Part shown: positions 3,530 through 17,528 of the stretch, one piece after another
Numbering within the stretch: the stretch's first letter is position 1
Layout: every line of letters begins with the position of its first letter
From: Candidatus Giovannonibacteria bacterium RIFCSPLOWO2_12_FULL_43_11c
Lineage (GTDB): Bacteria > Patescibacteriota > Minisyncoccia > JACPKW01 > UBA11713
DNA: 40,330 nucleotides
Reading direction: 5' to 3'
Assembly: GCA_001780775.1 (NCBI GenBank)
Contig: MFIO01000032.1
Span: forward strand, 1-40,330
Notes under the pieces: model-generated
Seen by the model: only the letters and a program-made list of their open reading frames with translations
What the model was told of the DNA's origin: nothing
The model's database searches: none
Program-made: the position numbers and the translations under genes

Positions 3530-3590
3530 CTTCTAAATTATACAATTTATTTAACAATACTTCCAGGCGGGACTTCGGAATCCAGTGAAA

Positions 3591-3842: not shown

Positions 3843-3844
3843 AG

Positions 3845-3916: not shown

Positions 3917-3922
3917 ATCTTA

Positions 3923-4255: not shown

Positions 4256-4590
4256 TTTATTTGATCAATTTTTGCTGCCATAATGAAATCGTTTTCCGAG
4301 AGGCCGCCGATGGCGTGCGTCCAGAGATTCAGTATCACTCTATTATATAAAAGCGCAAAGTCTGGATGATGCCCTTCCTCCTCTGCTAATGCGCCGACTT
4401 TGTTCGCAAACGCCAAAGCTTCTTTAAAATTCTTAAACTTAAATTCTTTGAAAATTTTCTCGGCCCTGACCAAATTCCACCCCTTAACTTGATTTAGGTA
4501 CGGCTGTATGTCCTCTGGCGAGAGCGGCTTCGTCCCGCCCTCGCACGGAATGCATTTTTTGGAAAGTAAATCCGCTTGATTATGAACCAT
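4252..4590 (-). CDS. Pterin-4a-carbinolamine dehydratase
   Basis: The 112-residue protein matches the PCD/DCoH family in length and motifs: an N-terminal CIPCEGGTKPLSPEDI segment, then EEEGHHPDFALLYNRVILNL with the catalytic His pair and the terminal HAIGGLSENDFIMAAKID helix. The enzyme dehydrates 4a-hydroxytetrahydrobiopterin. No aromatic amino-acid hydroxylase is visible nearby, so its physiological role here is open; members elsewhere also act in molybdopterin or folate metabolism. It is transcribed divergently from tRNA-Glu, with only 25 bases between. Confidence 0.95.
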   Translation of the reverse strand: MVHNQADLLSKKCIPCEGGTKPLSPEDIQPYLNQVKGWNLVRAEKIFKEFKFKNFKEALAFANKVGALAEEEGHHPDFALLYNRVILNLWTHAIGGLSENDFIMAAKIDQIK

Positions 4591-4615
4591 ATTTTATATA
4601 CTATAACCTGATTAC

Positions 4616-4690
4616 GGCCCCATCGTCTAATAGTTAGGACAGCGCTCTTTCAAGGCGTAAATCCGGGTGCGATTCCCGGTGGGGTCACCA
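4616..4690 (+). tRNA. tRNA-Glu (anticodon UUC), CCA encoded
   Basis: The plus strand gives acceptor GGCCCCA/TGGGGTC, D arm GTCT/AGGAC, anticodon loop CTTTCAA (anticodon TTC) on a stem with two G-U pairs, and T arm CCGGG/CCCGG with TGCGATT. Discriminator A and CCA are encoded (4687-4690). A possible promoter lies upstream: TTGATT at 4576 and TACTAT at 4599, 17 bases apart. A single C separates the CCA from the ATG of tsaD. Confidence 0.95.
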
Positions 4691-4691
4691 C

Positions 4692-5753
4692 ATGAAAATC
4701 CTTGCCATAGAGACATCATGCGATGAGACCGCGATCGCAGTTCTTAAAGTTCAGAAAACAAAAATCGGCGTTGATTTTGATATTCTTTCAAACCAAATCG
4801 CATCCCAAATAAAAATCCACGCGCCTTTTGGAGGAGTCGTGCCAAACCTTGCGAAACGAGAACATATTAAAAATTTACCGATTTTGCTTAAGCGCGCGCT
4901 TAAAGAGGCTAAGCTACCAAATGGTAGCTTAGCCTCTAAGTCAGACGCTGTCGCCGTCACATACGGCCCGGGGCTTGAGCCCGCGCTCTGGACCGGAATT
5001 ACTTTTGCAAAAAAACTCGCAAAAAAATGGCGCGTTCCGCTTGTGCCGGTTAACCACTTAGAAGGACATATATACTCAGCGCTAATGCAAAGGTCAAAGT
5101 TCAAAATTCAAAATAAAGGTATTTTCCCGATGCTTACATTAATAGTCTCCGGAGGGCATACGGAATTAGTGCTTACAAAAAATCACCTACGATATAAAAT
5201 TCTGGGAGAAACGCTCGATGACGCCGCGGGCGAGGCATTCGATAAAGTCGCGCGGATGCTCGAGCTCGGATATCCCGGAGGTCCCGCGATCTCTAAAGTG
5301 GCTAAGCCACTAAGTGGTGGCTTAGCCACTAAATTAAAGCTGCCGAGGCCTATGATAAATTCTAAAGATTTAAATTTTTCTTTTTCTGGTTTGAAAACTG
5401 CGGTTCTTTATTTGCTCCGAGACCTTGAGAAACAAAAAATAGATATTGCAAAACTGAAACCAGAAATAGCTCATGAATTTCAGGAAGCAGTTGTTGATGT
5501 CCTCATCAGAAAAACAATCAAAGCAACGGAACAGCATAAACCGCGCACGATAGCCCTCGGGGGAGGCGTCGCGGCAAACGATCGCCTCCGCGAAGAACTC
5601 GCCAAAAAATTTCCAGATATTCTTTTGCCGGAAAAACGTTTTACCGGCGACAATGCCGCTATGATCGCCGTTGCGGGATATTACCGTTTCACAAAAAGGA
5701 AATTCGATAATAATCCCAAGGCGACAGGAAATCTAAGGCTTTCAAAAAGCTAG
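4692..5753 (+). CDS. tsaD: tRNA t6A threonylcarbamoyltransferase subunit TsaD
   Basis: TsaD, with TsaB and TsaE, transfers threonylcarbamoyl from TC-AMP to A37 of ANN-decoding tRNAs. The 353-residue protein starts with the ASKHA signature MKILAIETSCDETAIAV, has the metal-binding pair in NHLEGH (residues 122 and 126), VSGGHTELVL, the FSFSGLKTAVL motif and a C-terminal GGGVAAND...TGDNAAMIA region. It is slightly longer than the roughly 340 usual residues because two related palindromes are inserted in frame at variable loops (around residues 72-82 and 203-213). The start is set by the family N-terminus; the ATG sits one base behind the tRNA-Glu CCA, with no independent ribosome-binding site except GGTGGGG inside the tRNA. 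Confidence 0.97.
   Translation: MKILAIETSCDETAIAVLKVQKTKIGVDFDILSNQIASQIKIHAPFGGVVPNLAKREHIKNLPILLKRALKEAKLPNGSLASKSDAVAVTYGPGLEPALWTGITFAKKLAKKWRVPLVPVNHLEGHIYSALMQRSKFKIQNKGIFPMLTLIVSGGHTELVLTKNHLRYKILGETLDDAAGEAFDKVARMLELGYPGGPAISKVAKPLSGGLATKLKLPRPMINSKDLNFSFSGLKTAVLYLLRDLEKQKIDIAKLKPEIAHEFQEAVVDVLIRKTIKATEQHKPRTIALGGGVAANDRLREELAKKFPDILLPEKRFTGDNAAMIAVAGYYRFTKRKFDNNPKATGNLRLSKS
4904..4937 (+). repeat. In-frame palindrome 1 in tsaD
   Basis: The arm AGAGGCTAAGCTACC (4904-4918) pairs perfectly over 15 bases with 4923-4937, leaving AAAT as the loop. It encodes part of the stretch KLPNGSLASK, which lies in a loop where TsaD proteins are usually a few residues shorter. Its core GGCTAAGC/GCTTAGCC is shared with the second tsaD palindrome. 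Confidence 0.85.
5297..5330 (+). repeat. In-frame palindrome 2 in tsaD
   Basis: AGTGGCTAAGCCAC (5297-5310) is the exact reverse complement of 5317-5330, with loop TAAGTG. It encodes KPLSGGLATK between the PGGPAI and PRPM motifs of TsaD, again adding residues in a variable region. The core matches palindrome 1, so the two look like copies of one small element. Confidence 0.85.
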
Positions 5754-5774
5754 AAAAATTGGCATAATTCAGAA

Positions 5775-7943
5775 ATGCCAAGCGAATTCGACAAACCCTA
5801 CGATCCAAAATCGGTAGAGCCCGAGATGTATAAAAAATGGGAAGAATCCGGGTTTTTTAATCCGGATAATTCACCAGGAAAACGCACTAAGCCCTTCACA
5901 ATCATAATGCCGCCGCCAAACGCGAATGGCTCGCTCCATATTGGTCACGCGGTTTTCGTCACGCTTCAGGATATTATGATCCGATTCGAAAGAATGCGCG
6001 GTAAAAAAACTCTTTGGCTTCCCGGGGCTGATCATGCTGGATTTGAAACGCAGGTGGTTTTTGATAAGAAACTTGAGAAAGAGGGCCGAAACAGATTTAA
6101 AATTCCGCGAGAAAAACTTTACCGAGAGATGCTGAACTTCACCGCGGAAAATAAAACGGTAATGGAAAATCAATTACGCAAGCTCGGAGCTTCCTGCGAC
6201 TGGTCGCGCGAAAAATTTACACTCGACAAAGATATTATTGAAATTGTCTATAATACCTTCAAAAAACTTTACAATGACGGACTCGCCTATCGCGATAGCA
6301 AAATCGTTAACTGGTGCACCAAACATCAAACCACATTGTCAGATGTCGAAATAAAATATGTTGAGCGCAAAGATCCGCTTTACTATATTAAATATGGCCC
6401 GGTAACGCTTGCCACCGTGCGCCTTGAGACAAAATTCGGGGATACGGCCGTGGCGGTTAATCCAAAAGACAAGCGTTATAAAGATTTAGTTGGAAAAGAA
6501 ATAGAAATACAGACATTGCTTGGCCCGGCCAAGATAAAAGTTATCGCGGACGAAATGGTGGATCCGAAATTCGGAACTGGCGCGGTTAAGGTTACTCCCG
6601 CCCATGACCCAAACGACTTTGAGGTGTGGCGCAGGCACAAAAACGAAATTCCCGGACCGCGTCCGGTTATAGACCAGTATGGACGGATAGATTTAAGCGG
6701 ATTTTCGAATCGCCCAGCCGCTCAAAAATATCATGGGCTCAAAATTTTGGAAGCGCGAAAAATCATGGAGGAAGACATGCAAAAAGAAGGCCTGATGGTA
6801 AAAATAGACCCAGATTATATGCACACCGTCGCAACTTGCTACAAATGCGGAACTATTTTGGAACCGCGAATTTTACCGCAATGGTTTATCGCAATGACTG
6901 CAAAACCAAAAGGCGGGGGAAAATCCTTACGGGATCTAGCAATCGAGGCTGTTAAAAAAGGGGAAATTAAATTCATGCCTCAGCGTATGGAAAAAATCTT
7001 TATGCATTGGATGAAAAACCTCCGCGACTGGAACATTTCCCGCCAGATCGTCTGGGGTATTCAAATTCCTGCATGGTACCGTAGCGAGGAAACCTATGTG
7101 GGAAAAGATAAGCCTGCTGGAGAAAATTGGACGCAAGATACAGATGTTTTTGATACATGGTTTTCATCCGGACAATGGCCGTTCGCGACCTTGATGGCTA
7201 CTGGCAAAAATGACTTTAAAACTTTCTATCCCACAAATGTGCTGGAAACTGGATGGGATATTTTATTTTTCTGGGTGGCGCGCATGATTATGCTCGGGAA
7301 ATACAGCACTGGAAAAATTCCATTCAAAACTGTCTACCTTCATGGACTCGTCCGTGACAAAGACAGGCAAAAAATGTCCAAATCAAAAGGCAACGTTATC
7401 GATCCTTTGGGCATGGCGGAACAATATGGAACAGATGGATTGAGAATGGCGCTTGTGATTGGGAATCTTCCCGGAAACGACGTGATAATCTCGGAGGAAA
7501 AAATCCGTGGTTATAGAAATTTTGCAAACAAAGTCTGGAATGCATCTCGCTTCGTGCTTATGCATGTCGCAAAAGCCCCGATCAAAAATAAAATTAAATA
7601 CAGTAAACAGAAAAAGCAAATGCTAGAGAAACTAAAAGAATGCAATAAAAAAGTGACTAAACATCTTGAAGAGTATAAATTTCACCATGCCGCAGACACA
7701 CTCTATCACTTCTTCTGGCATTACTATGCCGATAAAGTTATTGAGCATCTGAAAAAAGATTTGGATTCGGAAGACGGCACAGTTGAAAAAGAGACAGCCA
7801 AAGCGTTACTACTAAAATTTCACACGACATTAATTAAACTCCTCCACCCCTTCATGCCGCACATCACAGAGAAAATCTGGGAACATATCCCCAAAGAAGG
7901 CGAGAAAAAACTCCTTATGATAGAAGAATGGCCCAAACTTTGA
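5775..7943 (+). CDS. valS: Valyl-tRNA synthetase (short form)
   Basis: This class I synthetase charges tRNA-Val. The HIGH motif is in NANGSLHIGHAVF near residue 51 and the KMSKS motif in RQKMSKSKGNVIDP near residue 535. The CP1 editing domain is present (LETKFGDTAVAVNP, GTGAVKVTPAHDPNDFEV) and a CYKCGTILEPRILPQWF segment with a Cys pair precedes the second half of the catalytic core. At 722 residues it is far shorter than the roughly 900-950 of typical bacterial ValS and lacks the C-terminal coiled-coil tRNA arm, as expected in reduced genomes. CATAAT at 5763 ends seven bases before the ATG and no Shine-Dalgarno is present, so a leaderless mRNA is possible. It overlaps the next gene by 16 bases. 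Confidence 0.96.
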   Translation: MPSEFDKPYDPKSVEPEMYKKWEESGFFNPDNSPGKRTKPFTIIMPPPNANGSLHIGHAVFVTLQDIMIRFERMRGKKTLWLPGADHAGFETQVVFDKKLEKEGRNRFKIPREKLYREMLNFTAENKTVMENQLRKLGASCDWSREKFTLDKDIIEIVYNTFKKLYNDGLAYRDSKIVNWCTKHQTTLSDVEIKYVERKDPLYYIKYGPVTLATVRLETKFGDTAVAVNPKDKRYKDLVGKEIEIQTLLGPAKIKVIADEMVDPKFGTGAVKVTPAHDPNDFEVWRRHKNEIPGPRPVIDQYGRIDLSGFSNRPAAQKYHGLKILEARKIMEEDMQKEGLMVKIDPDYMHTVATCYKCGTILEPRILPQWFIAMTAKPKGGGKSLRDLAIEAVKKGEIKFMPQRMEKIFMHWMKNLRDWNISRQIVWGIQIPAWYRSEETYVGKDKPAGENWTQDTDVFDTWFSSGQWPFATLMATGKNDFKTFYPTNVLETGWDILFFWVARMIMLGKYSTGKIPFKTVYLHGLVRDKDRQKMSKSKGNVIDPLGMAEQYGTDGLRMALVIGNLPGNDVIISEEKIRGYRNFANKVWNASRFVLMHVAKAPIKNKIKYSKQKKQMLEKLKECNKKVTKHLEEYKFHHAADTLYHFFWHYYADKVIEHLKKDLDSEDGTVEKETAKALLLKFHTTLIKLLHPFMPHITEKIWEHIPKEGEKKLLMIEEWPKL

Positions 7944-8677
7944 CAATCGAAGGGCTTTCCATAGTTTTGGTAACCGGCCTGCTTCCGCCGCTTCTATGGC
8001 TTTGGTTCTGGCTTAAAGAAGATACGCACAAAGAGCCCAAGGGCGCTATAATGAAAAGCTTCGTCCTCGGGATGGCTTCAGTTCCGATTGTTTTGTTATT
8101 AGAATACGCATGGTGCAGTTTTTCGCTTAATTACGGATTTGTCCAAAACTGCGATTCTTCCACCACAACCGGTTTCGCGAGCCTATGGCTCTTAGCACCC
8201 TGGGCTTTCATTGAAGAAGTATCTAAATTTTCTGTCGCGTGGTGGGCGGATCTTAGGCGCTCGATATACGAAGCGCCAATAGACGCTGTCATATACCTTA
8301 TAACCGTTGCGCTTGGCTTCGCGGCCATGGAAAATATCCTCTTTCTGCTTAAGGTTCATACAGGAGGGGAGAAAATGCTCGCAATTCTGGCCGTAGCCGA
8401 TTTGCGTTTCGTCGGGGCCACTATTTTGCATACCGTAACGTCCGGAATTGTCGGAGTTTCTATAGCTTTTACCTTCTTTCACCCAGAAATCCACGCTCGT
8501 AATATATGGGGCGGGCTTATTTTAGCCACGGTATTGCACACAGTCTTCAATAAACTTATAATAGGTGCAGGGAGTTCGAGTTCCGTATTCCAATCTTTTT
8601 TAATAATCTGGACTCTCGCATTAATACTCATCTTCTTTTTTGAGAAAGTAAAAAGAATAAAGCCACAAAATATATGA
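7928..8677 (+). CDS. PrsW-like intramembrane metalloprotease
   Basis: The 249-residue membrane protein has about seven or eight hydrophobic segments and the PrsW-family motifs: FIEEVSK near residue 97, GFAAMENILFLL near residue 138, RFVGATILHTVTSG and a final VLHTVFN. PrsW in Bacillus cleaves an anti-sigma factor inside the membrane; here the substrate is unknown. The gene overlaps valS by 16 bases and its stop overlaps the Hsp20 ATG (ATGA), so valS, the protease and Hsp20 form one coupled unit. Pairing a membrane protease with a small heat-shock protein suggests an envelope or protein-damage response, which is inference. Confidence 0.87.
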   Translation: MAQTLTIEGLSIVLVTGLLPPLLWLWFWLKEDTHKEPKGAIMKSFVLGMASVPIVLLLEYAWCSFSLNYGFVQNCDSSTTTGFASLWLLAPWAFIEEVSKFSVAWWADLRRSIYEAPIDAVIYLITVALGFAAMENILFLLKVHTGGEKMLAILAVADLRFVGATILHTVTSGIVGVSIAFTFFHPEIHARNIWGGLILATVLHTVFNKLIIGAGSSSSVFQSFLIIWTLALILIFFFEKVKRIKPQNI

Positions 8678-9141
8678 AAGAACCTAGATCTTTTTTTGAA
8701 AAATTAACCGGATCTGCCAGAATAGATGACCAATTGGACGACAGTCCTGCGCCGACGTTTGCGAAAGCTTCACGCATTCCACAAAATTCAAATTGGCCCG
8801 ATGCTGGTGAGGAAGGCGAGTTGACTGTGGATGTTTTCCAAACCCCTGATGAAATAGTTATCCAATCCACCGTTGCTGGCGTAAAGCCAGATGAACTTGA
8901 TGTGACAATTACGCAAGATATGGTAACTCTAAAAGGCAAAAGGCAACGCTCAAACGAGGTTTCCGAAAAAGATTTCTACTACAAAGAGCTTTACTGGGGA
9001 ACTTTTTCCAGATCGATTTTATTGCCCCAAGAAGTTGACGCCGACGCCGCGCAGGCCTCTCTCAAAAATGGTCTCATCACGATAAAACTTCCCAAGCTCG
9101 ACAAACAAAGAACCCAGCGCTTGAAAGTAAAAATGGAATAA
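8674..9141 (+). CDS. Hsp20/alpha-crystallin family small heat-shock protein
   Basis: This 155-residue holdase-type chaperone has a variable N-terminal arm of about 48 residues followed by an alpha-crystallin domain: ELTVDVFQTPDEIVIQSTVAGV, VTLKGKR, then YWGTFSRSILLPQEVD and the characteristic LKNGLITIKLPK. Small heat-shock proteins form oligomers that hold unfolding proteins for refolding. The C-terminal tail is short (KVKME) without an obvious I-x-I motif. It is the last gene of the valS unit, followed 18 bases later by a strong terminator. Confidence 0.95.
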   Translation: MKEPRSFFEKLTGSARIDDQLDDSPAPTFAKASRIPQNSNWPDAGEEGELTVDVFQTPDEIVIQSTVAGVKPDELDVTITQDMVTLKGKRQRSNEVSEKDFYYKELYWGTFSRSILLPQEVDADAAQASLKNGLITIKLPKLDKQRTQRLKVKME

Positions 9142-9159: not shown

Positions 9160-9199
9160 AAAATCAAAAACCCCGCTTGGAGCGGGGTTTTTGATTTTT
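9160..9199 (+). terminator. Rho-independent terminator, bidirectional
   Basis: An 18-base perfect stem (9160-9177 with 9181-9198) with a three-base loop has the core ACCCCGCT/AGCGGGGT, flanked by A runs on one side and T runs on the other. It ends the valS to hsp20 unit and can also serve the leftward transcript from 9654. Confidence 0.92.
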
Positions 9200-9792
9200 G
9201 GTGCAAGTTTTTCTTTGGAACGCTAAACGTTCTTTGGCGGCATACTCTTTATGCTTAATGTACCTTCCATCTCACGTCCCCACTAAATTATTTAGGAAAA
9301 TTTTATGAAGAGAAGGATGCTCAAGAGGATAAAAATCACTAATGCAGAAAGAATCCCCTGTGCGAAGTACTTGAATCTGTGGCGAGATAAAAACCATGCC
9401 AAGATGATGACAATGAGGCTAATTAGAAATGAGAGTAAAATTGTTAATTCACTGGGTCCCAAAACATCTCCACCACACCCACCTTGAGCTACTACGCCCA
9501 AAGTAGTCCCACATGAATCGAGAATTATAGCACCGATAAATGTCAACAAGGGAATGACTCCCACCAAAAATAGCCCCGCGATAAATCTAAGACTTTTTTG
9601 GAAAGTAGGAATGCTATAGATTGAACTATCTTTGTTTTGAGGGTTGATGGTCATAATTATTTCTTAAATAACTCTTTCGAATAATTATTGAGAAATTTGG
9701 CGACGCCGTTGCAACAAAGTCCCTATGAAAAAATTTTCTTTCCCCCGCCGAAAGATTCAATTCAGGCGAGCAGGTAAAATATGGTTCTGGAT
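9199..9792. mobile_element. Decayed relative of the two recombinase elements
   Basis: TGGTGC at 9199-9204 equals the att core of element 1. Directly after it, 9204-9250 on the minus strand matches the recombinase codons for EYAAKEKL, interrupted by an 11-base insert flanked by an 8-base duplication (CCAAAGAA). A leftward membrane-protein gene follows, and at 9726-9786 comes a degraded copy of the inverted-repeat block edge (AAAAAATTTTCTTTCCCCC, then AAAATATGGTTC). The order left arm, leftward cargo, block edge is that of elements 1 and 2, but the recombinase is gone. Boundaries are approximate. Confidence 0.6.
9292..9654 (-). CDS. Small membrane protein, probable cargo of decayed element
   Basis: A 120-residue protein with three hydrophobic segments (about residues 24-48, 68-91 and 98-117). 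The loop between the first and second contains a Cys/Gly-rich stretch (CGTTLGVVAQGGCGGD) that could carry a disulfide. No family is recognised. It sits between a recombinase-derived left arm and a block-edge remnant in the same place and orientation as the cargo genes of elements 1 and 2, which suggests it was carried in by the lost element. It shares no visible sequence similarity with those cargo proteins. Confidence 0.7.
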   Translation of the reverse strand: MTINPQNKDSSIYSIPTFQKSLRFIAGLFLVGVIPLLTFIGAIILDSCGTTLGVVAQGGCGGDVLGPSELTILLSFLISLIVIILAWFLSRHRFKYFAQGILSALVIFILLSILLFIKFS

Positions 9793-9794
9793 TA

Positions 9795-10046
9795 CTATTT
9801 GAAGCTATCCCTAAGCATCAATTTTAATGCTCTTTTCCCTTGATTAGTTTTAAGATACTTCTTCCTCCGTTTAGCGTCAAGCCTAGATTTATATGCTTCG
9901 TAGAAAACAAGTTCAAAAGGGCAATAGGGTTTTGTGGCAGATGAGTGGCCACCTTGATGTTTTTGAAATCGCTTTTTTAAATCAGAAGTGTACCCAGTAT
10001 ATAACCAATCTTGCTTTTTACTTTTCAATAAATAAATGTAGTTCAT
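9795..10046 (-). CDS. GIY-YIG domain endonuclease-like protein
   Basis: This is a small stand-alone GIY-YIG nuclease domain: MNYIYLLKSKKQDWLYTGYT at the N-terminus (the GIY/YIG pair reads IYLL...YTGYT), SDLKKRFQKHQGG with the family Arg and His, and the central FYEAYKSRLDAKRRKKYL with its conserved Glu-containing strand. Such 80-90 residue proteins of the UvrC/YhbQ type are common; substrates are mostly unknown. I chose the ATG at 10046 because the family begins MNYIYLLKS; an in-frame ATG at 10061 would add five residues. It is probably a resident gene: element 1 is inserted between it and tRNA-Phe. Confidence 0.85.
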   Translation of the reverse strand: MNYIYLLKSKKQDWLYTGYTSDLKKRFQKHQGGHSSATKPYCPFELVFYEAYKSRLDAKRRKKYLKTNQGKRALKLMLRDSFK

Positions 10047-10097
10047 ATGTGTTAGATCCATGGTGGCCTAAACCAGAACTAAGTACGGTTCAGGCTT

Positions 10098-10135
10098 ACC
10101 ATGAACCGTGTCCTTCCAGGACTCTGGTTCATGGT
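10098..10135. repeat. Hairpin overlapping left attachment site of element 1
   Basis: ACCATGAACC (10098-10107) is the exact reverse complement of 10126-10135, and inside it GTCCT/AGGAC form a second stem around TCC. The right arm runs into the att core TGGTGC. Before integration this hairpin would have lain directly downstream of tRNA-Phe, perhaps as a terminator or processing signal. A further copy of the motif, ACGGTTCA at 10085, overlaps it. Confidence 0.65.
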
Positions 10136-10260
10136 GCGCTATTTTAAAGATAGTTCGAACACATTTCGTGGCCGAAGGCCGCGAGAAAATCCCCCTGCGA
10201 AATCCCGAACCCGCGGCTCCGCCGCTCTGATGACAATTTCAAGTTTTTCTTTGGCGGCAT
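10132..10260. repeat. Left arm of element 1 (attL side)
   Basis: After the core TGGTGC the arm resembles the left arm of element 2 and, inverted, the middle of block 10882-11167. Read rightwards from the core it is an open frame (AILKIVRTHFVAEG...) that ends at TGA 10228-10230. Its inner end, 10232-10260, is the reverse complement of recombinase 1 codons 31-40 (11276-11304) with a single mismatch. Confidence 0.8.
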
Positions 10261-10263
10261 TCC

Positions 10264-10878
10264 TTATTTAGTAAGTGACGGACAGAATAGATCTTTTATA
10301 GTCGTACCAAGAACTCGGCAGAATGTGTAGTTATTGCTTGTATATTTACACTCACTGAGACGATTGAAATTATTAGTTGGGTCTGAATAAGTATTAAAGA
10401 TAATATTAATACTGCACCCACTTTTATAGTATAGAGGTTCGGCAAGGAAGGCATAGGATGTTGTTAAAAAGATTATTAGAATAGCCGTTGATAGTCCATG
10501 AAAACATACTTTCTTGATAGCCGAAATCTCACCGCCTTTCCTTTTAGCCACGAAGTAACTAATAAATAATATAAAAACGAGTACGAAAAATGCTGTGGTT
10601 AGGAAATTAAACATTTCAAAAATATCATAGATCGGAACAAAAATATCAATGAGAAGAACTAGTATGACCGAAATTATTATATCAATGGCTACAAGAAAAG
10701 GATTGGATCTTTTGCGGAGTAAATAAGCAGCAAGTACGGGAATAAACAGGCCCACTAAAACAACAATGAATATTAATGCCATTATCACTAAAAAAGCAGC
10801 TCCTCCAGTACTTGCAAACGCAAAAGAGGGAATCAATAAAGAAAATATGGATATTGCCAATAATTTACTTTTGTTCAT
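10264..10878 (-). CDS. Element 1 cargo: multi-pass membrane protein
   Basis: I place the start at MNKSKLLAISIF (10878), giving 204 residues. A signal-peptide-like segment ending in PSFAFAS is followed by three more hydrophobic stretches (about 30-52, 62-84, 88-108) and one near 125-142, then a C-terminal region with four cysteines (GCSIN, SECKY, FCRVL, LFCPS) that would suit disulfides outside the cell. The frame is open a further 88 codons upstream, but that part is the inverted recombinase-end sequence in the block, so it is not taken as coding. The stop lies four bases from the left arm. No family is recognised. Confidence 0.72.
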   Translation of the reverse strand: MNKSKLLAISIFSLLIPSFAFASTGGAAFLVIMALIFIVVLVGLFIPVLAAYLLRKRSNPFLVAIDIIISVILVLLIDIFVPIYDIFEMFNFLTTAFFVLVFILFISYFVAKRKGGEISAIKKVCFHGLSTAILIIFLTTSYAFLAEPLYYKSGCSINIIFNTYSDPTNNFNRLSECKYTSNNYTFCRVLGTTIKDLFCPSLTK

Positions 10879-10881
10879 GAT

Positions 10882-11167
10882 GATTAAAAAATTTTCTTCC
10901 CCCAAAATTAAAATATGGTTCGAGCCGATGTTTTTCTCCGGGTTCTTTTGCGGTTTTGAGCGGTGCGGCTCCGCCGCCTTTCCGAATTTTCGCGGGGGGA
11001 TTTTTTCGGAAAAGTGCGTTCGGACTAATTCAAGAATACTGCACCACGTAGGAAAAGTCAAAGAGTTTTGGTTCGCCTCGCTTCGCTCGGCGACTAATTT
11101 GTATTCAATTTTGGGGGTAAAAACGAATTCACGATTTCGCATTTTGGGGGAAGAAAATTTTTTAATC
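10882..11167. repeat. Element 1 inverted-repeat block with attP-like junction
   Basis: The block is bounded by a perfect 27-base inverted repeat (10882-10908 and 11141-11167; core TTTTCTTCCCCCAAAAT). Next to its left edge, 10909-10936 is the exact reverse complement of recombinase 1 positions 12519-12546 (28 bases). The middle carries core GCACCA (11041-11046); on its left lies a copy of the left arm and on its right a copy of the recombinase 3' end, both inverted. The block fills the space between the divergent cargo and recombinase starts and must hold both promoters. Confidence 0.88.
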
Positions 11168-11184
11168 CTTAATTTCTAAAACTT

Positions 11185-12819
11185 ATGAAATACATACTTT
11201 ACGCAAGAAAATCTACCGAAGAAGATGACCGACAGGTTTTAAGTATTGAAGCTCAACTTGTTGAGTTGCAAGAGTATGCCGCTAAAGAAAAACTTGAAAT
11301 TGTCGGTCCGACTTTTGTCGAGACCAAAACTGCCAAAGAACCCGGGCGAATGAAATTCGCAGAAATGTTGTCATTGATTGAGAGGGGGAAAGCAGATGGA
11401 ATTATTTCTTGGCATCCCGACAGGTTGGCTAGAAATAGTGTTGATGGCGGAAAGATCATCCACTTTGTAGATCGTGGCTTGATTAAATCATTAAAATTCC
11501 CTACGTTCTGGTTCGAGCCAACTCCGCAAGGATTATTCATGCTCAACATCGCGTTCGGCCAATCAAAATATTTTGTAGATAATTTGCGAGAGAATGTGAA
11601 ACGAGGATTGCGGCAAAAAATCAGAAACGGAGTTTGGCCAGGTTGGGCTCCGGTGGGTTACATGAATAATCTAAAAACGAGAGGCATAGATATTGACCTC
11701 GATAAGTCTCCAAAGGTGCAAAAAATGTTTGAGCTTTATTCCACGGGAAGCTACACGCTTTTATCTCTCGCAAATTGGTGTAAGGAGAATAATTTGCGCG
11801 GAAATCTTGATAAAGAGATGTCTATCAATACGGTCTACAAAATTCTCCAAAATATTTTCTACATTGGCCTCATGAAATATAACGGGGAAATTTTCGAAGG
11901 AACTCACGAGTCGTTAATTTCAAAGAAACTTTTTGATTTATGCCAAGAAGTGATGAGCAAAAGAGGAAAACAAAAAGAAATACGAAAACATAATTTTTCT
12001 TTTCTTGGCTTGATGAAATGCACATGCGGAGCTTCAATCACAGCCGAAACACAAAAGGGTTTTGTTTATTATCGTTGCACGAAAAAGAAAGGGCTATGCC
12101 AAGAAAAGCATTATCTTCGTGAAGAATCACTTACCGAGCAAATCACTTCTTTTCTTCAAAAAGTTTCTTTGTCGAGCCAAGACACCGAGAAAGTTTTGGC
12201 GGCTTTAGACCAAGAACAAGAGAAGGCACGACAGGATTCTCAAGCCGAGGTTAATGTATCGAAAGCACAGTTATCACAGGTCGAGATAAAACTCCAAAAG
12301 TTGCTAGATATCTACCTTGCCGACGCTTTATCCACAGAAGAATACGCCGCCAAAAAACAAAGTTTGTTATCCCAAAAAATGTCGTTGAGCGAAAAAATCA
12401 CCGACTTTGAGCAGAAAGGGTTGTCTTGGCTCGAACCGGCTCGTGAGTTCGTAAAATCCTTAAATCAAGCCGCGAAATTGATGAGATCAGAAAACAAAAC
12501 CGAAATGACAACATTTCTGAAAAACATCGGCTCGAACCATATTTTAGAAAACCGCCAATTCAAATTTTCGGCCAAAACGCCGTATGATTTGGTCGCCGAA
12601 GTCCGCCAACCGGCGGACGAGGCGAGCCCCGTGGACTGGACTTTTACTAGGTGGTGCCGCGGGGGTGAATCGAACACCCGACCAATCCCTCTTCAGGGGA
12701 ATGCTCTACCACTGAGCTACCACGGCATTTTATTGATTCTAAAGTATTTTATTGAATTTTCAAAGTCCCCTCCCAAACATCGTTTCTCCAAGTCCAATCG
12801 CGCCCCATGCCGCCCATGA
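11185..12819 (+). CDS. Large serine recombinase, element 1 integrase
   Basis: The 544-codon frame has the resolvase/invertase catalytic domain (ILYARKS with nucleophile Ser10; HPDRLARNSVDGG), a recombinase domain (YKILQNIFYIGLMKYNGEIF), a zinc ribbon and a coiled-coil region (about residues 340-410). The ribbon's first knuckle reads CTC (C-x-C), where recombinase 2 has CASC. It is closely similar to recombinase 2. Beyond about codon 489 the frame runs through core TGGTGC and antisense across tRNA-Phe (CRGGESNTRP) into the kelch gene; that tail exists only in the integrated state. In a circle the same frame would continue as AILKIVRTHF and stop 31 codons later. No Shine-Dalgarno is evident. 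Confidence 0.92.
   Translation: MKYILYARKSTEEDDRQVLSIEAQLVELQEYAAKEKLEIVGPTFVETKTAKEPGRMKFAEMLSLIERGKADGIISWHPDRLARNSVDGGKIIHFVDRGLIKSLKFPTFWFEPTPQGLFMLNIAFGQSKYFVDNLRENVKRGLRQKIRNGVWPGWAPVGYMNNLKTRGIDIDLDKSPKVQKMFELYSTGSYTLLSLANWCKENNLRGNLDKEMSINTVYKILQNIFYIGLMKYNGEIFEGTHESLISKKLFDLCQEVMSKRGKQKEIRKHNFSFLGLMKCTCGASITAETQKGFVYYRCTKKKGLCQEKHYLREESLTEQITSFLQKVSLSSQDTEKVLAALDQEQEKARQDSQAEVNVSKAQLSQVEIKLQKLLDIYLADALSTEEYAAKKQSLLSQKMSLSEKITDFEQKGLSWLEPAREFVKSLNQAAKLMRSENKTEMTTFLKNIGSNHILENRQFKFSAKTPYDLVAEVRQPADEASPVDWTFTRWCRGGESNTRPIPLQGNALPLSYHGILLILKYFIEFSKSPPKHRFSKSNRAPCRP
12519..12657. repeat. Right end of element 1 (attR side)
   Basis: The 3' part of the recombinase frame is repeated inverted in block 10882-11167: 12519-12546 perfectly, and the stretch ahead of core 12652-12657 with changes (for example ACTTTTACTAGGTGGTGC against ACTTTTCCTACGTGGTGC). 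The core overlaps the last bases of tRNA-Phe. Confidence 0.82.
12601..12618. repeat. Palindrome in recombinase 1 end
   Basis: GTCCGCC pairs with GGCGGAC around AACC. The three other copies of this region (blocks 1 and 2 and the right end of element 2) have GAGCGAAGCGAGGCGA here with no such insert, so this is an occupied site compared with three empty ones. Confidence 0.75.
12652..12726 (-). tRNA. tRNA-Phe (anticodon GAA), CCA encoded
   Basis: The minus strand gives acceptor GCCGTGG/CCGCGGC (one G-U pair), D arm GCTC/GAGC, anticodon stem TTCCC/GGGAT (outermost pair T-T mismatched) with loop CTGAAGA (anticodon GAA) and T arm GGGTG/CACCC. Discriminator A and CCA are present. Its 3' GCACCA is the crossover core of element 1, whose integration keeps the tRNA intact. 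Confidence 0.88.
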
Positions 12820-13846
12820 TGTAAATTTTGTCGCGAAAAATCACTGTCGTAAAATCTTCTCTGCCGTCCCAAGGCAAATCCGCGCCAGCTTTTTTCCAAC
12901 TCTTTCCGTCTTCTGAATACCAAGCGTCGTTAGTTCCTCCATATTCATAATCGTCAAGCCTGCCCAAAAGCCAGAGTTTTCCTTCAAAATTTATCGCGCT
13001 TGCCCCTTGCCTGGATTGCCACGGCGGAGAATCGATTTCAAGCGTCCAATTTATACCGTCAGAAGATGACCAAACATCACTGTATAATTTTCCAGTCAAA
13101 TCCATGCCAGCAATCAGGTAAAATTTATCTTTGTAGACAGCAAGCGAGTGATCCCATCTTCCGGCCCAAAGCGCCCCGACCCCGGTCGGGGTTGCCAGAA
13201 CCCAATCAATTCCGTCTTCCGTATACCAAACATCGTCAAAAACTTTTCGCTTGTCGTAATTTACCCCTCCCATCATCCAAAGTTTCCCATCCAAAATTTC
13301 CGCGCTCTGCCCTTCTCTCGCGGGAAACGCGGCTTTCGTTTCAACTCTTGTCCAATTTACTCCATCGTCGGAATTCCAAATGTCGTTCACATATCCTCCG
13401 GCCTTACTCCATCCGCCAAACATCCACAATTTATCTTTAAAAAATAGAATCGACATGGATCTCCTCGGCGTCCAGATATTTTTGCTCTCTATCTTCGTCC
13501 AATTTGCGCCGTCTTCTGAATTCCAGATGTCGTTGAAATGCGGGGCGGTCCAATACGCGATGAAATGATTCTTGTCGACAAGCCCGTTGCCGTTAAGCCC
13601 CCCGATAAGCCAGATTTTATTCTGAAAGATAAATGTTTCGTGTGAATCTCTAGGCGCCCAAGGAGCCCCGACCGGGGTCGGGGTCAACTCTTTCCATTCC
13701 AGTGACGGCTCTTTAGAGATAATTTCATCTTTTTTCCCAGCATCCACGAAATTTCCATCGCTGTTATTTTTATCAACAGACAAAAACGAAAGAACCGCCA
13801 GCGCGGCTAGGGCCAATAAAATTTTTGTGAGGTCTTCCTTTTGCAT
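12749..13846 (-). CDS. Membrane-anchored kelch-type beta-propeller
   Basis: The 365-residue protein begins with a signal-anchor (about residues 8-24), a charged linker, then about six kelch-like blades with repeated D(V/I)W.S.DG..W and (K/R)(L/I)W..GG motifs, consistent with one extracellular propeller. Kelch propellers usually bind proteins or glycans; the ligand is unknown. The ATG follows the encoded CCA of tRNA-Val(UAC) by a single A. Two 18-base palindromes, reverse complements of each other, lie in matching loops of two blades (TPTPVGAPWA and TPTGVGALWA). The gene lies between the reconstructed ends of elements 1 and 2, so it is a resident gene, not cargo, and it is followed by tRNA-Phe. 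Confidence 0.87.
   Translation of the reverse strand: MQKEDLTKILLALAALAVLSFLSVDKNNSDGNFVDAGKKDEIISKEPSLEWKELTPTPVGAPWAPRDSHETFIFQNKIWLIGGLNGNGLVDKNHFIAYWTAPHFNDIWNSEDGANWTKIESKNIWTPRRSMSILFFKDKLWMFGGWSKAGGYVNDIWNSDDGVNWTRVETKAAFPAREGQSAEILDGKLWMMGGVNYDKRKVFDDVWYTEDGIDWVLATPTGVGALWAGRWDHSLAVYKDKFYLIAGMDLTGKLYSDVWSSSDGINWTLEIDSPPWQSRQGASAINFEGKLWLLGRLDDYEYGGTNDAWYSEDGKSWKKAGADLPWDGREDFTTVIFRDKIYIMGGMGRDWTWRNDVWEGTLKIQ
13174..13191. repeat. In-frame palindrome A in kelch gene
   Basis: CCCCGACC and GGTCGGGG form an 8-base stem around CC. It encodes the PTGVGA part of one blade loop and is the exact reverse complement of the palindrome at 13666-13683. Confidence 0.85.
13666..13683. repeat. In-frame palindrome B in kelch gene
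   Basis: CCCCGACC and GGTCGGGG around GG: the same 18-mer as at 13174 in opposite orientation. It encodes PTPVGA in the loop ahead of the first blade, the place equivalent to palindrome A. Confidence 0.85.
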
Positions 13847-13847
13847 T

Positions 13848-13922
13848 TGGTGCGCGCTCGAGGGATCGAACCCCGGACCTACCCGGTGTAAACGGGTCGC
13901 TCTACCACTGAGCTAAGCGCGC
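13848..13922 (-). tRNA. tRNA-Val (anticodon UAC), CCA encoded
   Basis: The minus strand gives acceptor GCGCGCT/AGCGCGC, D arm GCTC/GAGC, anticodon stem ACCCG/CGGGT with loop TTTACAC (anticodon TAC) and T arm CGGGG/CCTCG (one G-U pair). Discriminator A and CCA are encoded. One A separates the CCA from the ATG of the kelch gene. Before element 2 arrived it lay about 15 bases downstream of tRNA-Arg. Confidence 0.96.
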
Positions 13923-13937
13923 GATTTCTCTATATCC

Positions 13938-14065
13938 TGTCCAGTATTCTTGAAATAGTGCGAACCGTTTTCGCCCCGCCACGGCGGGGCGAGGAAAGCC
14001 CCCCGCAAAATTCCGAAATCGCGGCGGAGCCGCACCGCTAACAATTTCAAGTTTTTCTTTGGTGG
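13938..14065. repeat. Left arm of element 2 (attL side)
   Basis: From the core, 13938-14003 matches the reverse complement of block 15288-15617 nearly perfectly and contains the GC-rich stem CGCCCCGCC/GGCGGGGCG. Read from the core it is an open frame (SILEIVRTVF...AAEPHR) ending in TAA at 14039. The inner end 14041-14062 is the reverse complement of recombinase codons for AKEKLEIV. Confidence 0.85.
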
Positions 14066-14079
14066 TTAAAGTTTGTGGA

Positions 14080-15252
14080 TTATTCTACCGCTTCCACTAT
14101 CCACCAGAGTTCTTTGCCAATTCGCGCACCGTAGGAAATAGACCCTCCGTCAGGACTAAAGGTGGGTTGCCAAATACCATCATATTTCTTCCTCTCTCGA
14201 TCATTTACCACAAGCATTACTTGGTCTCCGTCTTCTCTGCCTTCACTTGCGACAAAAGCAAATTCCCCAGTGGGTCCGAAGACTAAATTAGAAACCCAAC
14301 GGTATGCCTTATGTGGGGTGCCGTTGACTACAGCCGATGACACGCCAAGTTTGTCGGATGGGTCTTGTCCCACATAGCCAAGTTGCTTACCATCTGGACT
14401 AATTGCCAAAAATCCGCCGCCTCGAGGAATAAACAAAAGGTTTCCATATAATGGATGTGACCCGCTGTATTCTACTCCGTCCACCACTAAAAGTTTTTTG
14501 AGTGGCGCCGATCCTGACTTCGACCACGCCCAATAAGCAAATGATTTACCGTCAGGGCTGAATGTGATATTGGATAGGATATCGTAGTATTCTTTTCCTC
14601 GTTGACCGTCAACCACTACGCGGCGCTTGCCGTATTCTCCGTTGCTGACATACGCAAGTTGCGTTCCATTAGGACTCCACGTGATACCAACTATTGACCC
14701 GCTCTCATCGTATTTCTTAGTACCGTCAACGACTAAAAACTTTTTATCTTTTTCCAGTACGCCATATGCAAGATGTTGACCGTCTGGGCTAAACGCAAAA
14801 CCAGTGATTCCATCATAAGGTCCGCGCTCCTCTCCATTAAGTATGAGAAAAACTCCCCTTCCTCTTTCTAACGCGACGTAAGCAAAGTTTTTCCCGTCAG
14901 AACTGAAAGGTTCAAAGGAGAAACCTGAAACATCATCATATGTTTTCCCCTTCTGCCCATCCCGTATTACTAATGACTTTCCGTTTTCTGTAACAACATA
15001 CGCAAATGACTTCCCGTTAGGAGTAAAAGCCATTCTATTTACGCTGGCTCGTCCAGGGGAACCAGGAGGAAAGTTGCTTGGCAAAGTTGCTAACTTTTTT
15101 GATAACGAATTTTCACTACCCTCTGTCCGGCTAGAACTGGGCGCGGGACTTAAGGATGATTTTTTTGAAACAAACAAAAAGCCGCCTATGCCTACAACAA
15201 GGCCAATCAATATTACAAATAAGATTATGTTTGCAAATCCTTTTTGATTCAT
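14080..15252 (-). CDS. Element 2 cargo: membrane-anchored PD40/WD40-like propeller
   Basis: The 390-residue protein has a short N-terminal motif MNQKGFANI and one membrane helix (about residues 9-28), a Ser/Pro linker, then about seven beta-propeller repeats of the TolB/PD40 type with recurring FSPDG(K/Q)..AY and VVDG motifs. It is expected to face outside the cell. The start follows the family-like N-terminus; no Shine-Dalgarno is present. It is transcribed away from the recombinase, from the edge of block 15288-15617, exactly like the cargo of element 1, but is unrelated to that cargo in sequence. Ligand and function are unknown. Confidence 0.85.
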   Translation of the reverse strand: MNQKGFANIILFVILIGLVVGIGGFLFVSKKSSLSPAPSSSRTEGSENSLSKKLATLPSNFPPGSPGRASVNRMAFTPNGKSFAYVVTENGKSLVIRDGQKGKTYDDVSGFSFEPFSSDGKNFAYVALERGRGVFLILNGEERGPYDGITGFAFSPDGQHLAYGVLEKDKKFLVVDGTKKYDESGSIVGITWSPNGTQLAYVSNGEYGKRRVVVDGQRGKEYYDILSNITFSPDGKSFAYWAWSKSGSAPLKKLLVVDGVEYSGSHPLYGNLLFIPRGGGFLAISPDGKQLGYVGQDPSDKLGVSSAVVNGTPHKAYRWVSNLVFGPTGEFAFVASEGREDGDQVMLVVNDRERKKYDGIWQPTFSPDGGSISYGARIGKELWWIVEAVE

Positions 15253-15287
15253 ATTCTTACAATTTAGTTAATAATTTTCAACTTTAT

Positions 15288-15617
15288 GATTAAAAATTTT
15301 TCCGTCCCCCAAATTCAAAACATGGTTCACGCCGATGTTTTTCTCCGTGTTCTTTTGCGGTTTTTATCGGTGCGGCTCCCAGCCTGCGCCGAGGCTTCGG
15401 CGGGCAGGCGCCGCATTTCGGATTTTTCGCGTGGGGCTTTCCTCGCCCCGCCGTGGCGTGGCGAAAACGGTTCGCACTATTTCAAGAATACTGGACACTT
15501 TAGAAAAAGGCAAGCCAGAGGTAGTCGCCTCGCTTCGCTCGGCAACCATTTCGTATTGAATTTTGGGGGCAAAAACGAATTGGCGATTTCGTTTGGGGGA
15601 CGGAAAAATTTTTAATC
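15288..15617. repeat. Element 2 inverted-repeat block with attP-like junction
   Basis: The block is bounded by a perfect 26-base inverted repeat (15288-15313 and 15592-15617; core TTTTTCCGTCCCCC). Its layout is that of block 10882-11167: inverted copy of recombinase codons for KNIGANHI near the left edge, then left-arm copy, core GACA at 15494-15497, then inverted copy of the recombinase 3' region (15494-15585 against 17017-17108). A 30-base palindrome is inserted in the left-arm copy. No gene in the block is supported apart from the reading frame of the junction itself. Confidence 0.88.
15382..15409. repeat. Palindrome inserted in block 2
   Basis: GCCTGCGCCGA and TCGGCGGGCAGGC form an imperfect stem around GGCT. 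Block 1 and the left arm of element 2 carry the same flanks (GCGGTGCGGCTCC then GCCGC) without it, so the insertion point is visible directly. Confidence 0.85.
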
Positions 15618-15636
15618 AATCTTAATCAACAAAACT

Positions 15637-16953
15637 ATGCGTTATGTAATCTATGCTCGCAAATCAACGGAAGATGATGACAGACAAATTCTCTCCATTG
15701 AAGCTCAACTTGTTGAGCTTCAAGAATTTGCCGCCAAAGAAAAACTTGAAATTGTCGCCTCTTTTCAAGAGGCGAAAACCGCAAAAGAACCCGGGCGAAT
15801 CAAATTCGCAGAAATGTTGTCATTTTTGGAGAAAGGAAAGGCGGAGAGAATACTCTCATGGCACCCGGATCGCCTTGCGAGAAATTCCGTTGATGGCGGG
15901 AAGATAATCCACATGATAGATAAAGGTTTAATTCGTTCCCTCAAATTTCCAACTTTTTGGTGCGAACCGACACCACAAGGATTGTTTATGCTGAACATTG
16001 CTTTTGGCCAAAGCAAATACTATGTGGACAATTTGCGAGAGAATGTAAAAAGAGGGCTGCGTCAAAAAATCCGAAATGGAGTATGGCCTTCTTGGGCTCC
16101 AGTGGGATACTTGAACAATGCCAAAACAAGGGGAATTGATGTTGATAAAGAAAAGGCACCTAAAGTCAGAAAACTTTTTGAAATGTATTCTACCGGAAGC
16201 TACACATTCATTTCTCTCGCAAATTGGTGCAAAGAAAATGGTTTGCGTGGAAATCTCGGCAAGGAAATTTCAGTAAGCAATGTTCAGCATATTTTACAAA
16301 ATCCATTCTATTTCGGACTTATGCGGTACCGAGGAGAGATATTTGAGGGAACGCACGAGCCGTTAGTATCAAAGAAACTTTTTGATTTGTGCCAAGAAGT
16401 TATGGCTAAGCGCGGCAGGGTACAGGAAGTAAAGAAACATCGCTTTTCTTTTCTTGGCTTAATGAAATGTGCTTCATGTGGCTGTTCTATCACGGCACAA
16501 TACGCCAAGGGCAACGGTGGCATTTACACCTATTACCGATGTACAAAAAAGAAAGGCGTATGCCAAGAAAAACATTATATCCAAGAAAATGAGTTGGCCG
16601 CGCAAATCAAAACACTTCTTCAAAAAGTTTCTTTGTCGAGCCACGACACCAAGAAAGTTTTGGCGGCGTTGGATAATGAGCAGGAGAAAGCAAAACAAGA
16701 AGCCCAAGACAAAGTTGATATTTTGAAAAACCAATTAGCTCAAAATGAAACAAAACTCCAAAAACTGCTTGACGTGTATTTAGACAATGCGCTAACTCAA
16801 CAAGAATACGCCACCAAAAAAGAAAAATTTATGTCCGAGAAAATACGCTTAGCAGAGAAAATTACCGATTTCGAACAAAAAGGTTTGTCGTGGCTCGAAC
16901 CGGCTCGTGAGTTCGTTTTATCCTTGAATCAAGCCGAAAATCTGCTTTCCTAA
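15637..16953 (+). CDS. Large serine recombinase, element 2 integrase
   Basis: The 438-residue protein has the serine catalytic domain (VIYARKS with Ser10; HPDRLARNSVDGG), a recombinase domain (QNPFYFGLMRYRGEIFEGTHEPL), a zinc ribbon with a full CASC knuckle and a coiled-coil segment. It is nearly collinear with recombinase 1, differing by scattered substitutions. A TAA at 16951-16953 ends it; the same frame then reopens directly and reads the conserved tail (MTTYLKNIGANHIL...AAERSEA...LPFSKVS) up to the att core, which in recombinase 1 is joined without a stop. So either the stop is a recent mutation or the tail is dispensable. No Shine-Dalgarno is evident. Confidence 0.93.
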   Translation: MRYVIYARKSTEDDDRQILSIEAQLVELQEFAAKEKLEIVASFQEAKTAKEPGRIKFAEMLSFLEKGKAERILSWHPDRLARNSVDGGKIIHMIDKGLIRSLKFPTFWCEPTPQGLFMLNIAFGQSKYYVDNLRENVKRGLRQKIRNGVWPSWAPVGYLNNAKTRGIDVDKEKAPKVRKLFEMYSTGSYTFISLANWCKENGLRGNLGKEISVSNVQHILQNPFYFGLMRYRGEIFEGTHEPLVSKKLFDLCQEVMAKRGRVQEVKKHRFSFLGLMKCASCGCSITAQYAKGNGGIYTYYRCTKKKGVCQEKHYIQENELAAQIKTLLQKVSLSSHDTKKVLAALDNEQEKAKQEAQDKVDILKNQLAQNETKLQKLLDVYLDNALTQQEYATKKEKFMSEKIRLAEKITDFEQKGLSWLEPAREFVLSLNQAENLLS

Positions 16954-16976
16954 AACGATTATCCAAAAATGACAAC

Positions 16977-17108
16977 ATATCTGAAAAACATCGGCGCGAA
17001 CCATATTTTGCGAAACCGCCAATTCATTTTTACCCCCAAAATTCAATACGAAATGGCCGCCGAGCGAAGCGAGGCGACTATCTCTGGCTTGCCTTTTTCT
17101 AAAGTGTC
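16977..17108. repeat. Right end of element 2 (attR side)
   Basis: This stretch is in frame with recombinase 2 but behind its TAA. Positions 17017-17108 match the inverted 15494-15585 at 87 of 92 bases, and the part ahead of it matches the left edge of the block. The terminal TGTC overlaps the tRNA-Arg 3' end. Confidence 0.85.
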
Positions 17109-17178
17109 TCCCCACGAGGAATCGAACCTCGATCTGCTCCTTAGAAGGGAGCCGTTCTATCCGTTGAACTATGGGGAG
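17107..17178 (-). tRNA. tRNA-Arg (anticodon UCU)
   Basis: The minus strand gives acceptor CTCCCCA/TGGGGAG, D arm GTTC/GAAC, anticodon stem GCTCC/GGAGC with loop CTTCTAA (anticodon TCT) and T arm CGAGG/CCTCG. Discriminator A; CCA is not encoded. Its last bases GACA are the crossover core of element 2. Confidence 0.95.
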
Positions 17179-17216
17179 CAAAAAGTTGGCAGTCAAGTTA
17201 AAATATTCTATCTTAT

Positions 17217-17528
17217 TTACGACGGATCTTCAATAATAAGGTTATTTTTGTAATCATTGAATTTTTCCTTCTTTTTTTCGATTCTTTCAATTGCTTTATT
17301 GAAACTCTTGGTTTTAAGGATCGCGGCTTCTGGCAAATCCGCGGCTTCTGAATCATTAAAATAGAAGCGGTAGAAAACCCATCCGTTGAACGCGAAAGTG
17401 ATCATGGCAAAAAATATCAAAACCCATATGAATTTTTTCCAGAGCTTTTCCGGTTCCAAAAAAAGGCTCCTCTTAGCTTGGCCGGATTTGAATAAAAACG
17501 CCTTCAGTTTGGAAAAATCAAAATTCAT
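17217..17528 (-). CDS. Single-pass membrane protein at end of pilus operon
   Basis: A 103-residue protein with one membrane helix (about residues 34-54) and a basic N-terminus, followed by an extracytoplasmic tail rich in Lys, Glu and Asn. The start overlaps the PilO-like gene by 11 bases, so it belongs to the pilus operon as its last gene. Its place suggests an accessory factor of the PilMNO inner-membrane assembly (a PilP-like position), but no PilP sequence features are visible. Confidence 0.7.
   Translation of the reverse strand: MNFDFSKLKAFLFKSGQAKRSLFLEPEKLWKKFIWVLIFFAMITFAFNGWVFYRFYFNDSEAADLPEAAILKTKSFNKAIERIEKKKEKFNDYKNNLIIEDPS

Follow-up and report, generated by a model that had tools for sequence, protein, structure and literature searches.

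The window, 40,330 nt of contig MFIO01000032.1 of Candidatus Giovannonibacteria bacterium RIFCSPLOWO2_12_FULL_43_11c (assembly GCA_001780775.1), carries two small integrated elements, E1 at tRNA-Phe (10132-12657) and E2 at tRNA-Arg (13938-17108). Both follow the same order: core, X arm, one leftward cargo gene, an inverted-repeat block, one rightward gene for a large serine recombinase, Y arm, core and tRNA gene. With a probability of about 0.8, E1 and E2 are recombinase-bearing members of a small-element family of the candidate phyla radiation (CPR, Patescibacteria) that would act like a gene-cassette system. Insertion, a three-site architecture, homogenised arms, a 5-bp shift, target switching and recombinase-free cassettes are shown by the sequences.

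The core occurs three times in each element, as TGGTGC/GCACCA in E1 and as TGTC/GACA in E2. By themselves, these cores are too short to carry meaning; the arms are not. In E2, the left end (13938-14026) is 89% complementary to the middle block (15409-15497) over 89 nt, and the other half of the block (15494-15591) matches the right end (17011-17108) over 98 nt at 94%. The arms of E1 are arranged in the same way and further decayed. Chance repeats are ruled out by the 98-nt match at 94% and by the conservation of the arrangement throughout the family. Two precise insertions with tRNA-terminal cores had already been proposed from the sequence alone, and the cores at both ends and inside the block, together with arms matching over 89 and 98 nt, bear this out. 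Both cores are tRNA-terminal as claimed, but GACA is not a CCA end, since the tRNA-Arg at E2 encodes none. The parts of both elements are the following:

10132-10137, plus strand: left core TGGTGC of E1 (attL crossover region), identical to 11041-11046 (inverted) and 12652-12657
10138-10231, plus strand: left X arm of E1 (P' half of attP; its TCGAAC is the T-loop motif), decayed compared to the middle copy
10232-10260, minus strand: E1 scrap A', antisense of recombinase nt 92-120 (97%; 100% to the E2 recombinase)
10264-10878, minus strand: E1 cargo, a 204-aa membrane protein without Pfam or NCBIfam match
10882-10908, minus strand: E1 leader L', a perfect inverted copy (27/27) of the recombinase leader 11141-11167
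10909-10957, minus strand: E1 scraps M' (10909-10936, recombinase nt 1335-1362) and K' (10938-10957, recombinase nt 138-157)
10958-11140, minus strand: putative middle inverted attP of E1 with X' arm, core GCACCA (11041-11046) and Y' arm
11033-11061, minus strand: promoter-like TTGACT-N17-TATTCT over the E1 attP core, directed at the cargo
11185-12819, plus strand: E1 large serine recombinase, a 544-aa open reading frame (ORF) continuing through the core and tRNA-Phe antisense
12652-12657, plus strand: right core TGGTGC of E1 (attR)
12652-12726, minus strand: tRNA-Phe (GAA), target of E1
13938-13941, plus strand: left core TGTC of E2 (attL)
13942-14026, plus strand: left X arm of E2
14041-14065, minus strand: E2 scrap A'
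14080-15252, minus strand: E2 cargo, a 390-aa anchored PD40 beta-propeller
15287-15364, minus strand: E2 leader L' (15287-15313), scraps M' (15316-15343) and K' (15345-15364)
15409-15591, minus strand: putative middle inverted attP of E2 with X' (15409-15493), core GACA (15494-15497) and Y' (15498-15591), crossed by promoter-like TTGCCT-N17-TATTCT
15637-16953, plus strand: E2 large serine recombinase, stopped by a nonsense codon after residue 438; the tail frame is ORF 16969-17253
17011-17108, plus strand: right Y arm of E2 (3' end of the recombinase coding sequence; 94% match to the middle copy) with right core TGTC (17105-17108, attR)
17106-17178, minus strand: tRNA-Arg (TCT), target of E2
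9199-9790, minus strand: probable remnant of an older cassette with TGGTGC (9199-9204), an A'-like piece (9205-9218), a 120-aa membrane ORF (9292-9654), and L'-like (9725-9745) and M'-like (9776-9790) pieces

The nature of the inverted-repeat block, present in both elements as the sequence-only reading had said, was missed there. On the plus strand, the left end reads core-X, the middle X'-core-Y' and the right end Y-core. X'-core-Y' is the exact reverse complement of Y-core-X, the junction expected in a circle, and the block thus has the sequence of a complete second attP in inverted orientation. The same three-site plan was found in nearly every relative with at least 45% recombinase identity and sufficient contig cover, across many CPR lineages. 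Identity within an element is mostly 93-100% for the Y arms (77-138 nt) and mostly 84-100% for the X arms (about 86-273 nt); this scoring excludes loci that are truncated by a contig end or have partly decayed. The arms stay alike within elements while the recombinases have diverged down to 45% identity. In relatives below about 40% recombinase identity, mostly still located at tRNAs, no such inverted arm was found. Middle and right core agree in elements at Arg, Phe, Ile, Leu, Tyr, Ser, Gln, Gly, Glu, Lys and Val tRNAs: mostly TGGTGC, TGGCGG for Ser, TGGAGC for Gly, TGGCTG for Gln, TGGCAG for Glu, and TGTC(C) where CCA is not encoded. With arm identity often at 98-100% inside one element and a middle core that follows whichever tRNA is currently occupied, the copies are homogenised; the middle copy is updated upon target change.

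Cargo and recombinase genes diverge from the middle attP in all clear cases, and their orientation is constant; plus-strand ORFs in some cargo segments (L008, L016, L031) were taken as probably spurious. At two loci, one half of an element has collapsed to a palindrome. At L133 (4644-4713), the cargo half reads X-27 nt-X' and the cargo is gone; at L135 (about 7250-7300), the other half reads Y'-Y and the recombinase is gone. Both look as if hairpin loops had been deleted. In L182 and L176 of the deeper clade, the cargo gene nearest to the middle attP encodes a candidate repressor of the element, an XRE-type regulator with 50% identity between the two loci.

Empty sites, which the sequence-only reading had expected in relatives, were found. 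In the same-genus genomes G001 and G002, which lack E1 and E2, tRNA-Arg is separated from tRNA-Val by 13 and 8 nt, respectively, and no element adjoins tRNA-Phe; G004 likewise lacks both. In G001, tRNA-Arg is followed by ACACTTTAG, possibly a scar. Because the flanks of the relatives differ from those of the window, the exact joins are not resolvable to the base. The elements have attL and attR with a shared short core, the relatives an empty attB. For the tRNA-Ile cassette, no empty-site match was found. The comparison of the tRNA-Leu cassette of G001 with G000 is unclean due to inversion of the tRNA: beside the same parB-like gene, tRNA-Leu(CAA) has opposite orientations in L139 (G001) and L198 (G000:C8), within the same genus, and the inverted one bears the cassette. 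Where a locus contains a tRNA, the recombinase gene almost always points at its 3' end, in the near clade about 157 nt past codon 437. Precise integration at tRNA ends by these recombinases is well supported.

How one type of recombinase may serve so many tRNAs is suggested by a single motif. TCGAAC starts 20 bp from the core in the X arm and 15 bp from it in the T-loop of the tRNA. Among 26 comparable loci, 22 have an offset of exactly 5 bp, with the motif further out in the X arm; on the Y side, no matching T-loop-like motif was noticed. In the attB of the LI integrase, the zinc-ribbon motif is 5 bp closer to the centre than in its attP (Rutherford et al., 2013; PMC3783163). It is therefore well supported, if inferred from sequence, that the recombinase reads the T-loop, found at a near-constant distance from every tRNA 3' end, and that the core would pick the isotype. 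The 5-bp offset to a universal T-loop would explain the at least 11 target isotypes. A tree of 36 recombinases shows at least 17 changes of target among 11 isotypes and interleaves distinct CPR host lineages, with E2 clustering with Azambacteria and Brennerbacteria.

The cargo occurs with or without a recombinase gene. A 22-mer of the X arm (up to 2 mismatches) was detected in 67 of 286 genomes of the class, its reversed control in none. About 60 of these loci were read; in most, X is followed by one leftward gene and, after about 0.8-1.3 kb, by a tRNA, with no recombinase. A recognisable right half and core are retained in at least 20 of the recombinase-free loci, and scars of 46-47 nt are present in L123 and L161. 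Two cargoes were each found in a recombinase element of one genome and in a recombinase-free cassette of another (L014/L151, 84% nucleotide identity over 1042 nt; L011/L130, 95% over 685 nt). In G005, of the same family, the tRNA-Arg/tRNA-Val slot, the very site of E2, is filled by 5.4 kb of several tandem cassettes without recombinase, whose neighbours are joined by Z-TGGTGC-X, an attP-like junction. Such single-gene cassettes in tandem and in one orientation (L075) form an integron-like array. The sequence-only reading had treated recombinase and cargo as one unit and named arms and cargo without recombinase as the finding that would speak against it; such loci are common, and this part had to be abandoned. 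That cargo and recombinase are separable is well supported. The other proposal of that reading, a variable cargo slot, holds, but not as a slot for membrane or surface proteins only: among the cargoes recognised by Pfam are a Na/Ca exchanger, dihydroorotate dehydrogenase, nitroreductase, PP2C, NUDIX, methyltransferase, RDD and DUF218 proteins.

In the L075 array (3376-8804), cargoes share the N-terminus MNQKGFANI..., a prepilin-like leader also found in the E2 cargo and in several other cassettes, and differ in the bodies behind this anchor. A truncated tRNA-Arg-like 3' fragment is located between the right end of the array and the intact tRNA-Arg (L075, 8745-8790), as if an incoming element had carried a tRNA 3' part. 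Contigs often end inside or beside elements (the ends of G000:C2 and G000:C26; L125, L128, L142, L146 and L155), so the family is probably under-represented in assemblies.

Both recombinases comprise Resolvase, Recombinase and Zn_ribbon domains, all above the gathering cut-offs. As had been noted from the sequence alone, they are similar (74-75% identity) and their cargoes unrelated. The E1 cargo (204 aa) has no family match in Pfam and NCBIfam searches; the E2 cargo (390 aa) is a PD40 beta-propeller behind the N-terminal membrane anchor MNQKGFANI.... The Y arm is the 3' end of the recombinase coding sequence (tail ...LKNIGSNHILRNRxFxF...LTFPTWC), and the ORF consequently extends into the tRNA. 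In nearly all complete relatives, it has no stop codon of its own and ends in or past the target tRNA in antisense; in E1, it continues through the core into tRNA-Phe antisense. The E2 recombinase departs from this: its residue 438 is followed by a nonsense codon, at a position occupied by a sense codon in relatives. The nearest named NCBIfam models for both are XisF and Ccr recombinases, all far under their cut-offs (CcrA/CcrB 70-85 bits versus 700-900). A staphylococcal cassette chromosome (SCC) element was rejected, as the Ccr equivalog level is not reached and the sites are tRNA ends instead of rlmH. An IS607-type transposon (weak partial match of 24-28 bits versus a cut-off of 110; precise tRNA targeting) and a prophage or satellite origin (one or few non-viral cargo genes; no relative in a viral-contig scan) were rejected as well.

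These data suggest the following course of events. A circle carrying attP (Y-core-X) would meet a tRNA 3' end (attB). The zinc-ribbon domain of the recombinase would sit on TTCGAA of the universal T-loop, at a distance from the core of 15 bp in the tRNA and 20 bp in attP, so that any tRNA might be used if its acceptor-end nucleotides match the core. The crossover would yield flank-core-X and Y-core-tRNA and keep the tRNA whole. A second complete attP, inverted, would precede the recombinase gene. In the clade of the window, integration would split a promoter at the ends and leave the middle copy intact toward the cargo. Recombinase-free cassettes (core-X-gene-Y-core) are probably moved in trans and could accumulate in arrays. 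Both circular intermediates and mobilisation in trans are likely.

The promoter-like sequence consists of TTG(A/C)NN in Y (-35 box) and TATTCT in X (-10 box), 17 nt apart. Of the 20 attP from elements with a recombinase identity of at least 57%, 19 have it in the same position; the mean over all 34 attP is 5.97 of 12 matches at that offset versus at most 3.76 in 1000 shuffles. The boxes are whole in the middle copy, directed at the cargo, and split at both element ends through integration. In the 54-100% clade, the cargo half additionally contains antisense pieces of its own recombinase gene from fixed coordinates, nt 92-120 by the left X arm and nt 138-157 and 1335-1362 by the middle X' arm; being coding pieces, they are not promoter motifs. 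They mismatch the own recombinase less than those of other elements (K 1.5 versus 3.5 of 20, M 0.8 versus 3.9 of 26, A 1.6 versus 2.5 of 28). As inverted pairs, the leaders L and L' match perfectly in many elements, although their sequence varies from one element to the next. This covariation would fit single-strand folding or regeneration in each cycle, neither with confidence.

Why a complete attP should be present inverted inside the elements can be answered in several ways. Regulation together with gene conversion is placed first, tentatively and at less than even odds, ahead of a single-stranded stage and of other or combined causes. The middle site would then be purely regulatory, a promoter for the cargo and operator for the recombinase, and would owe its likeness to the ends to ordinary gene conversion. 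This agrees with the divergence of cargo and recombinase genes from it, with promoter-like boxes that span the core at 17-nt spacing and with a TATNAT box in the same slot of several recombinase-free cassettes (weak statistics). However, the deeper clade has no such boxes at that position, and neither the core nucleotides of the current tRNA nor 100-nt distal arms are needed for regulation alone. A single-stranded stage, e.g. during DNA uptake, is unlikely. In a folded strand, the middle site might serve as a splint that pairs with both ends and restores double-stranded attP, reminiscent of CTXphi, with its paired inverted sites, or of attC in its folded form. Folding of one strand would explain why all inverted pieces are corrected to match: both arm halves are homogenised, L and L' are inverted pairs, and the 20-28 nt antisense scraps match the own recombinase best. 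Likewise, the middle block as single-stranded DNA folds far better than its shuffles (z -8), L133 and L135 each have one half collapsed to a palindrome, and orientation is constant. Yet simple cassettes without a middle site still sit at tRNA ends, serine recombinases cut both strands, which would leave a folded substrate with hairpin ends, double-strand gene conversion could homogenise long arms equally well, and no single-stranded form was seen. Two invertible circle halves for copy-number amplification or switching, comparable to inverted FRT sites on the yeast 2-micron plasmid, are highly improbable: A circle would indeed hold two complete inverted attP, but serine integrases do not recombine attP with attP (PMC3783163), no replication gene is present, and cargo and recombinase orientation is fixed in all clear cases, for which reason such inversion was set aside.

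It is rather doubtful that recombinase-free cassettes are nothing but decayed recombinase elements and that no cassette system exists. Some of these loci are without clear right ends, the recombinase part could be lost through the microhomology CCCCCAAAATT shared by L' and Y, several cassettes hold pieces of the recombinase 3' end, and one half is collapsed in L135 and L133. On the other hand, at least 20 recombinase-free loci have kept both ends, core and tRNA; the tandem cassettes of G005 have an intact Z-core-X, with the right end, Z, unlike the recombinase gene except for its last bases; and in L151, minimal ends surround a gene also present in a recombinase element. A farther-reaching view, a second, integron-like exchange system of the CPR with a T-loop-reading recombinase, in which the self-homogenising inverted attP and the covarying antisense pieces reflect a folded single-stranded stage, is unlikely as a whole.

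Several observations weigh against the main reading. The nonsense codon in the E2 recombinase and the arm decay of E1 mean that both copies may be inactive. Ordinary serine integrases require an excision (directionality) factor, and no gene for such a factor is evident in the elements. In the assembled sequences, neither a circle nor an excision product was seen, and some recombinase-free cassettes could be deletion remnants. Finally, the promoter-like boxes are absent at that place in the deeper clade (46-55% identity), where the inverted attP is still present; the promoter therefore cannot be the sole purpose of this inverted attP. A promoter there would probably be a secondary, more recent function of the site, or else one of two functions.

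Left of E1, the probable third, decayed cassette (9199-9790) suggests that elements accrete at tRNA-Phe. Small stand-alone GIY-YIG endonuclease genes (window 9795-10061; L139, about 2094-2340; L071, 2856-3092) adjoin the same kind of tRNA sites, in the window and at tRNA-Leu and tRNA-Phe in G001, and may be another tRNA-end colonist. An Rfam search at gathering thresholds for conserved small RNAs yielded tRNAs only.

The enzyme class and integration at tRNA ends are already known. With integrases of the A118/LI, phiC31 and Bxb1 type, the family shares the Resolvase-Recombinase-Zn ribbon order, the attP x attB logic and the 5-bp zinc-ribbon shift (PMC3783163). In contrast to these, it has a second, inverted attP inside, a Y half within the recombinase ORF, one recombinase clade for many tRNA isotypes and single-gene cassettes without recombinase. 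Integrons also have single-gene cassettes in one orientation, tandem arrays and probable mobilisation in trans by a recombinase whose gene is near an attachment site. Here, however, the recombinase is of the serine and not the tyrosine type and is itself on the mobile unit, the targets are scattered tRNA ends instead of one attI, and the ends are double-stranded attP/attB-type sites instead of attC hairpins. An integron proper was rejected: IntI-type tyrosine recombinase and a single attI platform are absent, and the cassettes are located at many tRNA ends, mostly with no recombinase gene nearby. SCC, with CcrA, CcrB or CcrC, likewise uses large serine recombinases and is known for tandem elements at one site and for ccr-less elements, but comprises tens of kb compared to about 1-3 kb here, targets rlmH instead of tRNAs and has no known inverted attP. 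CTXphi also carries two inverted attachment sites (attP1/attP2); there, XerC/XerD act on a folded single strand, whereas the enzyme here is a serine recombinase. In IS911-type circle-junction promoters, -35 and -10 boxes likewise flank the joined ends; in the present family, the site formed by joining is an attP, and the element keeps a further intact copy inside, directed at the cargo. The sequence-only reading did not recognise this kind of element, and in searchable open-licence papers on CPR serine recombinases, tRNA cassettes and integrons no description was found of such elements, nor of an inverted internal attP, of one enzyme reading the T-loop in many isotypes, or of single-gene cassettes that belong to a serine recombinase and lack its gene.

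The internal inverted attP, identical to the ends and updated with each target, is an architecture whose function lends itself to direct testing. T-loop reading suggests a serine integrase that might be programmed by matching the core to a chosen tRNA. CPR bacteria have tiny genomes and few recognised vehicles for gene transfer. Delivery of single genes to tRNA ends by elements of 1-3 kb, one arm type of which alone is present in about a quarter of the surveyed genomes of the class, would be a major route of gene gain and would explain the variable genes found adjacent to tRNAs.

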